From Ancylobacter moscoviensis (GTDB lineage Bacteria; Pseudomonadota; Alphaproteobacteria; Rhizobiales; Xanthobacteraceae): 64,000 bases of DNA. Below, one piece after another: positions 484-9,440 of this stretch (positions are counted from its first letter, which is position 1; every line of letters begins with the position of its first letter). Location of the stretch: the NCBI RefSeq assembly GCF_007559435.1, contig NZ_VMBP01000006.1, forward strand, positions 124,001 through 188,000, in the 5' to 3' direction. The notes beneath the pieces were generated by a model that was not told where the DNA came from, made no database searches, and saw only the letters and a program-made list of their open reading frames with translations. The position numbers and the translations under genes were made by a program.

Positions 484-1827
<1,344 letters not shown>

Positions 1828-1842
1828 TCGGGCGCGTGCGCT

Positions 1843-1882
1843 CTCCTCGAGGAGGGTGCCGGCCTCTCCTTTGTGAGGAGAG
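1843..1882. repeat. Two small palindromic hairpins after glmM
   Basis: A perfect 12-bp palindrome CTCCTCGAGGAG (1843-1854) is followed by an inverted repeat with 7-bp arms, CTCTCCT and AGGAGAG, around TTGTG (1864-1882). There is no T-tract, so this is not a canonical intrinsic terminator, although it sits between the convergent glmM and choV ends. The CTCTCC/GGAGAG theme resembles the longer repeat mosaic at 17,414-17,515. Confidence 0.45.
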
Positions 1883-1999
1883 ACCGGTCCGGGCGACCCC
1901 CTCCGCGCCCGAAAGCACTTCCCGAATCGACTGTTGAGGTCCGATCCCAAGGGAAATGCTCACATCCGGCGTGCGTGGCGCGTGCGTCGGTGGGCGGCC

Positions 2000-3193
<1,194 letters not shown>

Positions 3194-3196
3194 GGC

Positions 3197-4048
3197 TTAT
3201 CCCTTTCGCGAGCGCCGCTCGGGCCGCTTGCAGACGCGGTCGAGGACGATGGCCAGCACGACGATGGCGAGGCCCGCCTCGAAGCCCATGGCGATGTTCA
3301 CCGAGTTCAGCGCGCGCACCACCGGCTTGCCGAGCCCGTCGGCGCCGACCAGGGCGGCGATGACGACCATGGACAGGCTGAGCATGATGCACTGGGTGAT
3401 GCCGGCCATGATGGTGGGCAGCGCGTAGGGCAGCTCCACCTTGAACAGCAGCTGGGTCTTGGTCGCGCCGAAGGCCTTTCCCGCCTCGTAGAGCGCCGGC
3501 GGCACCGACGAGATGCCGAGATGGGTGAGGCGGATCGGGGCGGGGAGCGAGAAGATCACGGTCGAGATCAGCCCCGGCACCGCGCCGAGCCCGAACAGCA
3601 CCAGCGTCGGGATCAGGTACACGAAGGTCGGGATGGTCTGCATCAGGTCGAGGATCGGCCGGATGGCGGTGTAGAGCCAGGGGCGGTGCGCGGCGGCGAT
3701 ACCGATGGGCACGCCGACGATGACGCAGACCAGCGTGGCGCAGATGACGAGAGAGAGCGTCTCCATCGTCGCCTGCCAGTAGCCGAGATTGGTGACCAGC
3801 AGCAACGCGCCGACGATGAAGACCACCAGCCCGATCGAGCGGTGCATCAGCCAGGCGCCGAGCCCGAACAGCGCGATGAGCAGGAGCGGGGGCACCCAGA
3901 GGAGGGCGGCGGTGAAGCCCCCGATCAGCGCGCCGAGGACGAGCGAGACGAAATCGAAGAACCCCTGACCGTGCGTGGTGAGCAGGTCGACGAAGTCCCG
4001 CAGCCAGATCCCCAGCGGGATCTTGTGCTCGGTCAGCCAGTCATACAT
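3197..4048 (-). CDS. choW: Choline/glycine betaine ABC transporter permease
   Basis: Inner-membrane permease of 283 aa with several hydrophobic segments and the conserved loop of binding-protein-dependent permeases (EAGKAFGATKTQ followed by a LPYALPTIMAG segment). Start: an ATG at 4048 gives MYDWLTEHKIPLG and is preceded by a GGGAG ribosome-binding site. The frame stays open to 4108 but those codons lack a better site. It lies between the binding-protein gene choX (145 bp gap) and choV (3 bp). The product should form the translocation pore with ChoV and receive substrate from ChoX. Confidence 0.92.
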   Translation of the reverse strand: MYDWLTEHKIPLGIWLRDFVDLLTTHGQGFFDFVSLVLGALIGGFTAALLWVPPLLLIALFGLGAWLMHRSIGLVVFIVGALLLVTNLGYWQATMETLSLVICATLVCVIVGVPIGIAAAHRPWLYTAIRPILDLMQTIPTFVYLIPTLVLFGLGAVPGLISTVIFSLPAPIRLTHLGISSVPPALYEAGKAFGATKTQLLFKVELPYALPTIMAGITQCIMLSLSMVVIAALVGADGLGKPVVRALNSVNIAMGFEAGLAIVVLAIVLDRVCKRPERRSRKG

Positions 4049-4193
4049 GGCGCACTCCCGACGGCGCAGGTGGATGTGTGGTGATGTGCGGGTGGGGCCC
4101 CCGCCCATGCGGTGGCGGGGTCAAAGCCGGTTCTCGCCGCGAAGTTGCCGACCGGGCTCCCGCCGCCGGTGCGGCGGGAGGCCGGCGCGGTCA

Positions 4194-5153
4194 TCAGATC
4201 TTGAGGGCCTTCTTGACCGCCGGCACCGCCGGCTGGCCGTCGATGGTGGTCACGCCGGCGAGCCAGGGCTCCCAGACGGTGGGATTGGCCTTGAGCCACT
4301 TCTCGGCCGCCTTGGACGGCTCCATGCCGTCGAGCAGGATGTAGCCCATCACCACGTTCTCGGTGTCGAGCGAGAACTTCAGGTTCTTGATGAAGGTGCC
4401 GACATTCGGGCAGTCGGTGGCGTAGCCGGCGCGGGTGTTGGTGTAGATGGTCGCGCCGCCGTAGTTCGGGCCGAACACGTCGTCGCCGCCCGAGAGGTAG
4501 CTCATCTTGAACTTGGCGTTCATCGGATGCGGCTCCCAGCCGAGGAAGACGATGGCTTCCTTGCGCTTGGAGGCGCGCTCGACCTGGGCCAGCATGCCCT
4601 GTTCGCTGGATTCGACGAGATCGAAGCCCTTCAGCCCGAACTTGTCGTCCTTGATCATGTCGAGGATCAGACGGTTGCCGTCATTGCCCGGCTCGATGCC
4701 GTAGATCTTGCCGCCGAGCTTGTCCTTGAACTTGGCGATGTCGGCGAAGGACTTCAGGCCTTCCTCGTAGAGATAGGTCGGCACGGCAAGCGTGTACTTG
4801 GCGCCTTCGAGGTTCACCCCGATGACCTCGACCGACTTGTCCTCGCGATAGGGCTTGAGGTCGGCTTCCATGGTCGGCATCCAGTTGCCGAGGAAGACGT
4901 CGATGTCCTTGGTCTGCATCGACTTGTAGGTCACGGGCACCGACAGCACCTGCGTCTTCGGCGTGTAGCCGAGGGCTTCGAGGATCGAGGAGGCGATGGC
5001 GGTGGTGGCGGTGATGTCGGTCCAGCCGACATCGGCGAACCGCACCGTCTTGCAGGCGGCGGGCTCGGCGGCGCGGGCGGTGTCGCGGAGCGTCGGGGCG
5101 GCGGCCAGCGCCAGCCCGAGAGCGGCCGCGGCCGCGAGTTTGAAGGTGCGCAT
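4194..5153 (-). CDS. choX: Choline-binding periplasmic protein of the ABC transporter
   Basis: Periplasmic substrate-binding protein (319 aa from ATG 5153) with a signal peptide in about the first 29 residues (MRTFKL then an alanine/leucine-rich core). The ligand box matches Sinorhizobium ChoX closely. Tryptophans fall at 44 (VGWTD), 91 (GNWMP) and 206 (GWEPHP), tyrosine at 120, aspartate at 46 and asparagine at 157, each one residue later than the ChoX positions I recall (W43, D45, W90, Y119, N156, W205). This supports choline as the main ligand. It is the first gene of choXWV, and its promoter region holds a perfect BetI-like palindrome at 5390-5409. Confidence 0.94.
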   Translation of the reverse strand: MRTFKLAAAAALGLALAAAPTLRDTARAAEPAACKTVRFADVGWTDITATTAIASSILEALGYTPKTQVLSVPVTYKSMQTKDIDVFLGNWMPTMEADLKPYREDKSVEVIGVNLEGAKYTLAVPTYLYEEGLKSFADIAKFKDKLGGKIYGIEPGNDGNRLILDMIKDDKFGLKGFDLVESSEQGMLAQVERASKRKEAIVFLGWEPHPMNAKFKMSYLSGGDDVFGPNYGGATIYTNTRAGYATDCPNVGTFIKNLKFSLDTENVVMGYILLDGMEPSKAAEKWLKANPTVWEPWLAGVTTIDGQPAVPAVKKALKI

Positions 5154-5389
5154 CGTTTCTGTTCCCGGTTGGCATCCTGGCAGGATCATGGAACCGGCAT
5201 GGCCTGACGCCAAGTCCGGCACGACCTCAATCGACAAGTCGGAGTCGGATACGTCCCGCCCGCCGCCCGAAAGAGAGCGATGCTGCCCGGAACCCTGTGC
5301 GGGGCCGGACGGAGATGGACGTACTCAACCCTGTCGGCACCTGCGGCGCGCTATGGCACCCGATACCGGATGCGGCCTCTGGAAGGCTC

Positions 5390-5409
5390 TTTTGAATGAT
5401 CATTCAAAA
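5390..5409. promoter_or_regulatory. Candidate BetI operator for choXWV
   Basis: The 20-bp sequence TTTTGAATGATCATTCAAAA is a perfect palindrome about 240 bp upstream of the choX start. TetR-family regulators bind palindromes of this size, and BetI is encoded 196 bp away. The core TGAATGATCATTCA is close to the second site upstream of betI. Assignment to BetI is inference from proximity and similarity. Confidence 0.7.
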
Positions 5410-5566
5410 CATGATCGGGCATTTTGTCACGCGTAATTTTTGCCCAGATTTGCGAATTCTCGTCCCGTTTTGGTGCAGTTTGACCGAATCCGCCATCGTG
5501 CCAGAAGCATTGCGACGTCAGGGGTTGGGATGCGGGAGGCTCTTTGCGGCCCGATTGGATCGATGT

Positions 5567-5584
5567 ATTGTATGTTCATTCAAT
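5567..5584. promoter_or_regulatory. Candidate BetI operator for betI-betB-betA
   Basis: The 18-bp imperfect palindrome ATTGTATGTTCATTCAAT matches its own reverse complement at 14 of 18 positions and ends 20 bp before the GTG start at 5605. It shares the ATTCA half-site and overall spacing with the perfect palindrome at 5390-5409. Its position is suited to repression of the bet genes by BetI, relieved by choline in known systems. Confidence 0.65.
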
Positions 5585-5604
5585 AAGTCGATCAGGAGGG
5601 GCCG

Positions 5605-7770
5605 GTGGCCAGGGCGAATGCGCACGCGCAAGTCCATTCCGACCGGGGCGACGATTCCCTGCACGAGGAGGAGACGCGCCGGCGCGAGCCGGAGGACGTC
5701 CGGCGGCGGCAGCTGATCGACGCCACCATCGAATCCCTCGCCGAGATCGGCTTCAACGCCTCGACGCTGGCACAGATCGCCCGCCGCGCCGGCGTCTCGC
5801 CCGGCCTCGTGGCGCATTATTTCGGCGACAAGGACGGGCTGCTGGAGGCGACGCTGCGCTCGCTCTCGCTGCGGCTCTATCGCGCCACGGCGGCCCGGCT
5901 GGCGATGGCGGGGGACGCGCGCGGGCGCGTGCAGGCGCTGATCGATGCCAATCTGGCGCCGGAGGAGTTCGACCAGCGCACCTCCAGCGTCTGGCTCGCC
6001 TTCTGGGGGCAGGTCCTGCATTCCGAGCGGCTGCGGCGGGTGCAGCGCATCTATCAGGCGCGCATGCTCGCCAATTTGCGCCACGACCTGCGCAGCCTCG
6101 TCGCGCCCGGCGATGTGCACCGGGTCGCCATCACCATCGCCGCCGTCATCGACGGGCTGTGGCTGCGCTCGAGCCTTTCCGCCGCCGGCGAGACCGATTC
6201 CGTGAGCGCCCGCCAGGTCGCCTCGCTCTTCGTCGACGCCCAGATCACCGCCGCCCGGGACTCCCTTTCCGCTCCGGCTCCCGCCACTGATGGATCTCCT
6301 TGCATGACCAGCCGCCCCCCGCTCCACGCCAATCATATCGGCGGGCGCTACCGCCCGACTGGCGGCGCGACCTTCGAGACCCGCAATCCGGCCACCGGCG
6401 AGGTGCTCGCCGAGATCGAGATCGCCGGGGAGCCGGAGGTCGAGGCGGCGGTCGCGGCGGCGCGGCAGGGGCAGAAGCGCTGGGCGGCGATGACCGGCGC
6501 CGAGCGCGGGCGAATCCTCAAGCGCGCGGCGGAACTGCTGCGCGCGCGCAACGATGAGCTGGCGCGGCTGGAGACGCTCGACACCGGCAAGCCGATCCAG
6601 GAGACCAGCGTCGTCGACGTGCTCTCCGGGGCCGACTGCCTTGAATACTATGCCGGCCTTGCCGCCTCGCTGTCGGGCGAGCATGTCGATCTCGGCCCGA
6701 GCGCCTTCGGCTATACGCGGCGCGAGCCGCTCGGCATCGTCGCCGGCATCGGCGCGTGGAACTATCCGCTGCAGATCGCCTGCTGGAAGTCGGCCCCGGC
6801 GCTTGCCTGCGGCAACGCCATGATCTTCAAGCCGGCGGAATTGACCCCGCTCACCGCGCTCAAGCTGGCGGAAATCTACGTCGAGGCCGGCGTGCCGGAG
6901 GGCGTGTTCAGCGTGATGCAGGGCTTCGCCGATACGGGGCGCCTGCTCACCCGGCATCCCGCCGTCGCCAAGGTCTCGCTCACCGGCGAGGTCGGCACCG
7001 GCAAGAAGGTCATGGCGGATGCCGCCGGCACGCTGAAATACGTCACGCTGGAGCTGGGGGGTAAGTCGCCGCTCATCGTCTTCGACGACGCCGACCTCGA
7101 CGACGCCGTCTCGGGCGCGATGCTGGGCAATTTCTATTCGGCCGGCGAGGTCTGCTCGAACGGCACGCGCGTCTTCGTGCATGAGAAGGTGCGCGCGGCC
7201 TTCCTCGACAGGTTGGTCGCCCGTGTGGCGAAGATGGTGGTGGGCGATCCGCTCGACCCGGCGACGCAGGTCGGCGCGCTGATTTCGCCCGACCACATGG
7301 AGAAGGTTCTCTCCTACATCGCCAAGGGCAAGGCCGAGGGCGCCAAGGTGCTGGTCGGCGGCGAGCGCGTGGTGGCGAACGGGCTTGGGAAGGGCGCCTT
7401 CGTCGCGCCGACCGTGTTCGACGGCTGCGCGGACGGCATGAGCATCGTGCGCGAGGAGATCTTCGGTCCGGTGATGGCGGTGCTGTCCTTCACCGACGAG
7501 GACGAGGTGATCGCCCGCGCCAACGACACCGAGTTCGGCCTCGCCGCCGGCGTCTTCACGCGCGATCTGGCGCGCGGCCATCGGGTGATTGGACAGCTCG
7601 AAGCCGGCACCTGCTGGATCAACCACTACAACATCACGCCGATCGAACTGCCCTTCGGCGGGGTGAAGCAGTCCGGCCTCGGCCGTGAGAACGGCAAGGC
7701 GGCGATCGAACACTACACCCAGCTTAAGAGCGTCTACGTCAATCTTGGCCGCGTCGAGGCGCCCTACTGA
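5605..7770 (+). CDS. betI-betB: In-frame fusion: BetI-type TetR repressor joined to betaine aldehyde dehydrogenase BetB
   Basis: One open frame of 721 codons runs from GTG 5605 (AGGAGG at 5594-5599) to TGA 7768-7770. Residues about 35-230 are a BetI-like TetR regulator: a helix-turn-helix around [20 protein letters not shown] and a ligand domain with VWLAFWGQ and DGLWLRS, both typical of BetI. After a proline/alanine-rich linker, residue 234 is the Met that would begin BetB. The following 488 residues are a full-length NAD-dependent aldehyde dehydrogenase, with glutamate in LELGGKSP (BetB residue 250) and catalytic cysteine in GEVCSNG (residue 284). BetB oxidises betaine aldehyde to glycine betaine. 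No clear ribosome-binding site precedes ATG 6304. Normally these are two proteins; a lost stop codon or a single-base sequence error near 6250-6300 is the alternative to a true fusion. Confidence 0.85.
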
Positions 7771-9440
7771 TGCTGAACGGCGCGGGGGAGGCCTTCGACT
7801 ATGTGATCGTCGGGGCGGGTTCCGCCGGCTGCGTGCTGGCCGACCGCCTGAGCGCGGACGGGAAGAACCGCGTCCTGGTGCTGGAATTCGGCGGCTCCGA
7901 CCGCTCCGTGTTCATCCAGATGCCGAGCGCGCTCTCCATCCCGATGAACATGAAGAAATACAACTGGATGTATGAGAGCGAGCCCGAGCCGGGGCTCGAC
8001 GGCCGGCGCATGCACTGCCCGCGCGGCAAGGTGCTCGGCGGCTCCTCCTCCATCAACGGGCTCGTCTATATGCGCGGCGCGCCGGCCGATTTCGACCGCT
8101 GGCAGGAGGAGGGCGCGCAGGGCTGGTCCTATGCGGACGTGCTGCCCTATTTCCGCCGGGCGGAAACGCGCCGCGACGGGGGAGACGCCTATCGGGGCGC
8201 CGACGGGCCGCTCGCCACCCGCTACGGCACGCTGGCCAATCCGCTCTACAAGGCCTTCATCGAGGCGGCGCGCCAGGCCGGCTATCCCGCGAGCGAGGAC
8301 GTCAACGGCTACCAGCAGGAAGGCTTCGGCCGCATGGACATGACCGTCAGGGACGGCGTGCGCTGGTCGGCGGCCAATGCCTATCTCAAGCCGGCGATGA
8401 AGCGGGCGAACCTGAAGGTCGAGACCCATGCGCGGGTCGAGCGCGTGCTGTTCGAGGGGCGCCGCGCCGTCGGCGTCGTCTGGTCGCGGGGCGGCGAGAG
8501 GCACGAGGTGCGGGCGGCGCGCGAGGTCATCCTTTCCGGCGGGCCGATCAACTCGCCCCAGCTGCTCAAGCTTTCCGGCATCGGCAATGCCGACGAACTG
8601 CAGGCGCTCGGCATCGATGTAGTCGCCCATCGACCGGGGGTGGGCGAGAACCTGCAAGACCACCTCGAATTCTACTTCCAGGTCGCCTGCACGCAGCCGA
8701 TCACGCTCTATTCGCAGATGGGACTGTTCGCGCGCGGGCTCATCGGCGCCCGCTGGCTGCTCACCGGCGAGGGGCTCGGGGCGACCAACCATTTCGAGGC
8801 CTGCGGCTTCATCCGCTCGCGCGCCGGCATCGCCTCGCCGGACATCCAGTACCATTTCCTCCCGCTGGCCGTGACCTATGACGGGCAGGGGCTGGCGAGC
8901 GAGCACGGCTTCCAGGCCCATGTCGGGCCGATGCGTTCGAAGAGCCGGGGCTGGGTAAGGCTCAACTCCCCCGATCCGGCCGCGCCCCCGCGTATCCAGT
9001 TCAACTATCTCACCCATCCCGACGACATGGTGGAGTTCCGTGCCTGCGTGCGGCTCACCCGCGAGATCTTCGCGCAGAAGGCCTTCGACCCCTATCGCGG
9101 GCGGGAGATCCAGCCGGGCGCGGAGGTGACCGACGACGCGGCGATCGACGCCTTCGTGCGCGCCAAGGTCGAGAGCGCCTATCATCCCTCCTGCACCTGC
9201 AGGATGGGCGCGGCTTCCGACCCGATGGCGGTGCTCGATCCGCAGATGCGGGTGATCGGGGTGGAGGGGCTGCGCGTGGTGGATTCTTCCGCCATGCCGT
9301 CGATCACCAACGCCAATCTCAACGCGCCGACCATCATGATGGCGGAGAAGGCGGCGGACCATATCCTCGGCAAGCCGCTGCTCGCCCCGTCCAACGCGCC
9401 CTACTACGTCGCGCCGAACTGGCAGGTGGCGCAGCGTTAG
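7770..9440 (+). CDS. betA: Choline dehydrogenase
   Basis: BetA (556 aa) is a membrane-associated flavoenzyme of the GMC oxidoreductase family that oxidises choline to betaine aldehyde. The N-terminal FAD-binding motif [14 protein letters not shown], the GMC segment [14 protein letters not shown], the second GMC signature [17 protein letters not shown] and the C-terminal catalytic region [11 protein letters not shown] followed by NLNAPTIM are all present. The ATG overlaps the betB TGA by one base, implying translational coupling. Length is the usual 550-560 residues. With the BetB domain upstream it makes glycine betaine for osmoprotection or for the demethylation pathway encoded further right. 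Confidence 0.97.

Follow-up and report, generated by a model that had tools for sequence, protein, structure and literature searches.

A conserved reading frame joining the repressor BetI to betaine aldehyde dehydrogenase, with paired operator-like palindromes upstream, in Ancylobacter and related bacteria

The DNA analysed here (the window) is a stretch of 64,000 nucleotides from the Ancylobacter moscoviensis contig NZ_VMBP01000006.1, in which betI and betB form a single open frame on the forward strand, running from a GTG at 5605 to a TGA at 7768–7770 (721 codons, or 727 from stop to stop). The frame is flanked on one side by the divergently oriented choXWV genes (2000–5237, reverse strand) and on the other by betA, whose ATG overlaps the stop codon of the fusion by base 7770 (Table 1). 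A 731-codon open frame also lies antisense across the fusion (5518–7713, reverse strand), and it is probably an effect of the high G+C content.

Table 1. Coordinates in the window of the fused gene, its parts and signals, and the neighbouring genes
Feature	Position	Strand	Basis or remark
betI-betB fusion	5605..7770	+	One open frame, 721 codons + TGA
BetI part and start of linker	5605..6303	+	TetR_N residues 37–82, TetR_C_6 residues 106–214
BetB part	6304..7770	+	Profile scores; N386, E483 and C517 conserved
AGGAGG ribosome-binding site for the fusion start GTG 5605	5594..5599	+	Strong
Linker, residues 215–240	6247..6324	+	Mean identity to the window 16% (80-row alignment); residues 223–235 with pLDDT < 50
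Weak Shine-Dalgarno-like triplet GGA, 9 bases upstream of the internal ATG	6292..6294	+	25 of the 26 genus genomes keeping the internal start
ATG of Met 234, inside the frame; probable start of free BetB	6304..6306	+	Start kept in 26 of 30 genus genomes
O1, operator-like palindrome directly upstream of the fusion gene	5565..5586	.	Palindrome search, re-estimated motif
O2, operator-like palindrome on the choX side	5389..5410	.	Palindrome search, re-estimated motif
betA, choline dehydrogenase	7770..9440	+	Above NCBIfam cut-off
choX, choline ABC transporter binding protein	4194..5237	-	Divergent; above NCBIfam cut-off
choW, permease	3197..4108	-	Above NCBIfam cut-off
choV, ATP-binding protein	2000..3193	-	Above NCBIfam cut-off

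A first-pass annotation of this DNA had proposed that BetI and BetB are encoded as one 721-residue protein without an intervening stop, and in fact the frame is open throughout and both halves score above the cut-offs of their families. The BetI part alone passes the NCBIfam equivalog threshold of TIGR03384 (203 bits, cut-off 201.3) and that of PRK00767 (195.5 bits, cut-off 118), and the whole fusion protein passes both BetB models, NF009725 (815.1 bits, cut-off 593) and TIGR01804 (707.2 bits, cut-off 668.6). A Pfam search at E ≤ 0.001 returned only TetR_N, the BetI-type TetR_C_6 and, at residues 254–710, Aldedh, with ribbon-helix-helix and proline dehydrogenase domains absent from the fusion. 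The residues N386, E483 and C517, which we take to be the catalytic Asn, Glu and Cys of aldehyde dehydrogenases, are invariant in 80 of 80 aligned rows from related loci, and so are the BetI hallmarks that were inspected, with the exception of Y72 (79 of 80); the annotation was thus right in stating that both halves keep their characteristic residues, as it was in placing the Met of the usual BetB start at residue 234. Elsewhere in the same genome (E ≤ 0.001) no further match to the BetB part exceeds 45% identity and none to the BetI part exceeds 42%, the best of the latter extending over 53 residues, and each genus genome holds only one BetI-grade match (E ≤ 1e-30). An AlphaFold model of the fusion built with 59 rows has a mean pLDDT of 84.0 and a pTM of 0.67, and its domains are mostly confident; the joint between them falls below a pLDDT of 50 (residues 223–235), as do the stretches 367–370, 670–686 and 696–704 in the enzyme half. 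The best 50 matches to the fusion in the PDB are all aldehyde dehydrogenases, and in a sequence search none of the best 60 of 252 chains had its best stretch before residue 225.

A recent indel or a sequencing error could have joined two separate genes, as the first-pass annotation had itself suggested from other-frame stops sitting where betI normally ends, and the two TGAs in question (6288–6290 and 6305–6307) are both present. Comparison of the junction in related genomes refutes this explanation, to which we now give practically no weight. The closest named relatives are Ancylobacter species, and in all 30 genomes of the genus the BetI match lies inside a frame of 696–831 codons that reads through into BetB; furthermore, 79 of 80 related loci are fused in frame, although these were found with the whole fusion protein as query and ranked by similarity, so that the sample favours fusions. 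The sole unfused one is L086 (Aquibaculum), with a stop between the genes. An accident of this kind is also hard to reconcile with the lack of any usual start codon for BetB in 8 of the 80 loci. These data support the view that the fusion is, as judged from sequence, real, old and conserved, and that it unites a repressor with an enzyme of its own pathway, both of them apparently intact.

Fused forms are less frequent in samples drawn evenly from the class and the phylum. In a sample of 385 genomes of the class, the BetI query matched 29 at E ≤ 1e-30, three of them with BetI fused to a full BetB (G000, G503 and G504) and one, G414, with BetI fused to a decayed BetB; the BetB query matched 40 at E ≤ 1e-180, three of which are fused. 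In the phylum sample, 107 of 398 genomes matched the BetI query at E ≤ 1e-25 and five were fused (G000, G022, G504, G805 and G819), a count that leaves out G663 (744 codons, one TAG inside) and G599 (682 codons, one TGA inside). Long frames in G176, G149 and G326 resembled fusions and turned out not to be fused. By name, fused loci occur in Xanthobacteraceae, Kaistiaceae, Aurantimonadaceae, Pleomorphomonadaceae, Caulobacteraceae, Acidocellaceae and Rhodomicrobium, and also in metagenome-assembled genomes labelled Gammaproteobacteria, including Steroidobacteraceae. On the Komagataeibacter saccharivorans plasmid NZ_CP023037.1 (L218, 6013–8043) the fused frame is annotated as a single CDS, 'betB', and in this one annotated fused record that was examined the product name hides the repressor half. 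In 54 plasmid records a single place spans 80% or more of the query, and most of the 40 records listed annotate betI and betB separately; two were examined, of which H2 is fused and H1 has stops between the genes.

Trees were built from 131 rows, reduced to 119 (87 fused, 32 unfused) by dropping 12 duplicates. In the BetB tree 86 of the 87 fused rows fall in one clade (SH-aLRT 99), the exception, L149, being a long branch, and in the BetI tree, which has several long branches, a single branch parts all fused from all unfused rows (SH-aLRT 98). When seven unfused BetBs were added to the FastTree tree (six from the best 17 of 40 BetB places in the class and one, L237, ranked 18th), the number of changes rose from 2 to 4. 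One of them, L231 (G487), joins the fused L051 on a starred though long branch, and another, L224 (G275), has fused rows as its nearest neighbours. Neither locus has a BetI beside its BetB, and the two genomes, which are incomplete (83% and 74%), gave weak TetR hits only. Unfused BetBs lying among or next to fused ones and lacking an adjacent BetI indicate that some lineages have probably lost BetI from the fusion, and the history that these sequences suggest is probably that of a single old fusion event with later BetI losses.

Several loci depart from this pattern. In L154 and L218 the BetI half is 41–44% identical to that of the window and the BetB half 69–74%, which suggests either a fast-evolving or an exchanged repressor half. 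In the G414 locus (L119, 604–2100, reverse strand) an open frame of 501 codons joins BetI to a shrunken aldehyde dehydrogenase remnant, and betA begins directly after it. The remnant, probably inactive, scores 67 bits against Aldedh over profile positions 26–195, and the region of the catalytic Cys is missing from the alignment. The locus keeps two operator-like sites, and the other matches to the BetB part in this genome (E ≤ 1e-60) reach at most 45% identity. This protein, seen in one genome, is possibly a pseudoenzyme regulator or a decaying fusion. A locus of the same genus, L186 (G907, 1474–3560), was considered as a second case of a decayed enzyme; it turned out to be a BetI-BetB fusion whose frame breaks towards the end of betB (residues 4–346 and 331–488 of BetB match in different frames), so that L119 stands alone.

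The segment joining the two domains is poorly conserved (Table 1), and in the 80-row alignment the stretch bounded by residues 214 and 258 is 21 to 44 residues long, depending on the row. In spite of this variability, a start codon is found at the old BetB start in 26 of the 30 genus genomes (25 ATG and 1 GTG), and 25 of these 26 have a GGA upstream, at a distance of 9 bases in 23 genomes and 6 bases in two. GGA makes up only 4.2% of the glycine codons in the fusion frames of the genus (87 of 2090), and of 61 glycine columns the one before Met 234 is the only one with a GGA majority, the next best having 11 of 26. As a control, eight other conserved ATG columns have GGA upstream in 0–6 of 26 genomes, as against 24 of the 25 ATG rows at Met 234. 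This conservation at silent sites, before a start codon and in a poorly conserved linker, makes internal initiation of free BetB likely, and we consider that in Ancylobacter free BetB is, from this sequence signal, probably made beside the fusion. The first-pass annotation had found no good ribosome-binding site before the internal ATG; the site is indeed weak, with a Shine-Dalgarno energy of -3.1 kcal/mol as against -10.8 for the GTG at 5605 and -5.9 for betA, but the judgement overlooked that the GGA is conserved at the synonymous level in the genus. This second start is not general, as four genus genomes (L214–L217) have no start codon in the linker. Among the 80 related loci, eight have no in-frame ATG, GTG or TTG between the two parts, so that BetB is hardly likely to be made there in any form but the fused one, and 36 have GTG or TTG only.

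Between the fusion and choX lie the two operator-like palindromes O1 and O2, 176 bp apart and built of ATTGA/TCAAT-like half-sites. These half-sites resemble those of the Ruegeria betI box, given as ATTGACG*CGTCAAT in the accessible part of its description (PMC12442346), although the spacing between half-sites differs. A sigma-70 promoter scan of 5230–5640 found none. In 28 of the 30 genus genomes both O1 and O2 are among the top three hits within ~430 bp, L205 and L206 having only one inside that range, and two named Ancylobacter loci with longer upstream DNA, L011 and L031, have both sites, 189 and 188 bp apart. The O1 match is weak in L214–L217 (9–10 of 14 positions, where the shuffled maximum averages 8.3–8.4).

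For a comparison over all loci, an operator model derived from 58 genus sites was re-estimated with 207 sites taken from all loci, and it leans towards the sites on which it was partly trained. With the re-estimated motif at 12 bits, at least two sites were found in 72 of 83 fused loci (those of 85 fused candidates with enough upstream DNA) and in 0 of 48 unfused loci, the latter including BetI-like genes without an adjacent betB, near-copies from one genus and three loci without any site. The contrast holds where choX is divergent, with two sites in 54 of 59 fused loci and in none of 22 unfused ones, 21 of which have one site and the remaining one none. Shuffled upstream regions, preserving single-base composition only, gave 0.15 hits per kb at a threshold of 6 and 0.07 at a threshold of 8. 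The fused and unfused groups reflect few evolutionary events, so the p-values of this contrast should not be taken at face value; the stronger point is that fused loci retain both sites through spacings of 41–206 bp.

Not all fused loci follow this layout, and 11 of the 83 have one site, five of them caulobacterial. Of six two-site fused loci without choX that were checked, four have instead a divergent DAO or amino-acid permease gene (L045, L059, L081 and L085), L044 also has a permease and L080 an ABC gene; in L036 no family was recognised. In three one-site fused loci that were checked (L043, L048 and L039) no such divergent gene was recognised. According to this, a second site may tend to occur where a divergent gene is co-regulated. 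Helical phasing of the site spacings, considered as general support for DNA looping, finds some support among the Ancylobacter-like loci (10 distinct spacings, p ~0.02) and none when all fused loci are taken (44 distinct spacings, p ~0.36).

Betaine aldehyde dehydrogenase normally forms tetramers, and the DNA-bound form of TetR proteins is a dimer. Taken together, these two properties mean that an assembly of the fused protein could carry two DNA-binding dimers, which fits the paired operators. Our overall reading of the sequences, to which we assign a probability of about 0.6, is that one gene encodes a bifunctional repressor-enzyme, able in principle to hold two operators as a tetramer, with free BetB made in addition in Ancylobacter. 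The fused protein itself is almost certainly made. Its BetI half would dimerise and, without choline, would repress the betIB-betA operon and the divergent choXWV genes at O1 and O2, and its BetB half would be a working betaine aldehyde dehydrogenase on a flexible linker. Binding of the fusion to both predicted palindromes is quite likely. With two BetI dimers on one tetramer, both operators might be held at once, possibly as a DNA loop, and we put the chances of such bridging or looping a little below even. The weak second start of Ancylobacter would supply free BetB, which would raise the enzyme above the repressor and leave fewer DNA-binding halves in mixed tetramers. More tentative still is the idea that joining to a tetrameric metabolic enzyme gave the repressor its operator pairing, with the nested start tuning the number of repressor heads per tetramer.

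Three other explanations of an intact fusion deserve consideration, and the closest competitor is that the two operators serve the two divergent promoters independently, without bridging, the joining of the proteins being neutral or only stoichiometric. It agrees with this that O2 is the palindrome nearer to choX and O1 the one nearer to betI, and that two sites occur in some fused loci where a transport or DAO gene is divergent and one site in some where no such gene was recognised. Against it, the 22 unfused loci in which choX is divergent in the same way never have two sites, and we regard this explanation as quite possible, with odds somewhat under even. A different proposal is that the protein works as a flux sensor in the manner of PutA, in which the enzyme half would read betaine aldehyde or NAD(H) and alter DNA binding by the BetI half, so that catalysis switches the operon. 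Two intact halves in one chain would allow it, and PutA offers an earlier example of an enzyme repressing its own genes. Nevertheless, the joint is hypervariable (both in length and in sequence) and modelled as flexible, which favours valency over tight allostery, and BetI already responds to choline, as stated in the accessible part of PMC7876524. We therefore find a flux sensor unlikely, and the comparative evidence from these sequences seems to point first to two operators instead of one as the correlate of fusion, before flux control.

It could also be that Ancylobacter makes mainly free BetB from the internal start, the fused form being a minor and unimportant read-through product. In its favour, GGA is strongly kept at silent sites ahead of a conserved ATG although the linker is variable, but a ribosome that completes BetI runs into no stop codon ahead of BetB, the internal site is far weaker than the upstream one, and the linker has no start codon in 4 of the 30 genus genomes and 8 of the 80 related loci. 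This makes it rather improbable, and a bifunctional repressor-enzyme, accompanied in Ancylobacter by some free BetB, remains the reading that we prefer.

PutA also joins a DNA-binding domain to a catabolic aldehyde dehydrogenase of the pathway that it regulates, and its DNA-binding part is a ribbon-helix-helix, accompanied by a proline dehydrogenase. The BetI-BetB fusion has this combination in one chain too and may work like PutA; unlike in PutA, its DNA-binding domain is of the TetR type and comes with a ligand domain of its own, and it has neither a ribbon-helix-helix nor a proline dehydrogenase. Trigger enzymes and enzyme-regulator fusions such as NadR, BirA and MocR likewise combine catalytic and gene-regulatory domains in one protein, although they belong to other families and pathways, and the correlation with operator number is a new point here. 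LacI is a tetrameric, loop-forming repressor, and two DNA-binding dimers per assembly with two operators within ~200 bp would match its layout; in contrast to LacI, a metabolic enzyme would supply the tetramer here, and looping is a proposal for which the overall phasing gives no support.

With unfused betIBA systems (E. coli, Vibrio and the two BetIs of Ruegeria pomeroyi) the locus shares the BetI-type TetR domain, betB, betA and a palindromic operator, and it differs from them in that repressor and enzyme form one chain, that most loci have two operators and that there is a likely nested BetB start. In characterised cases BetI has choline as effector and a palindromic operator, according to the accessible parts of PMC7876524 and PMC12442346, the latter of which also discusses two BetIs and choXWV neighbours. 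No BetI-BetB fusion was found reported in the titles and abstract openings listed by searches of the PMC literature, a collection outside which most subscription papers lie. In the accessible part of PMC12442346 the matches to 'fus' concern fusion PCR, and that of PMC7824335 mentions fused methyltransferases and no fused BetI.

If our reading is right, a well-studied regulator of osmoprotection exists in a taxonomically broad fused form. As fused and unfused relatives are found side by side, the effect of the joining on valency, on operator layout and on the balance between repressor and enzyme becomes directly testable, and the same comparison also allows a test of whether two starts are used within one frame. 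If bridging by the tetramer and the nested start both proved true, enzyme supply, repressor valency and DNA looping would be set by one gene.
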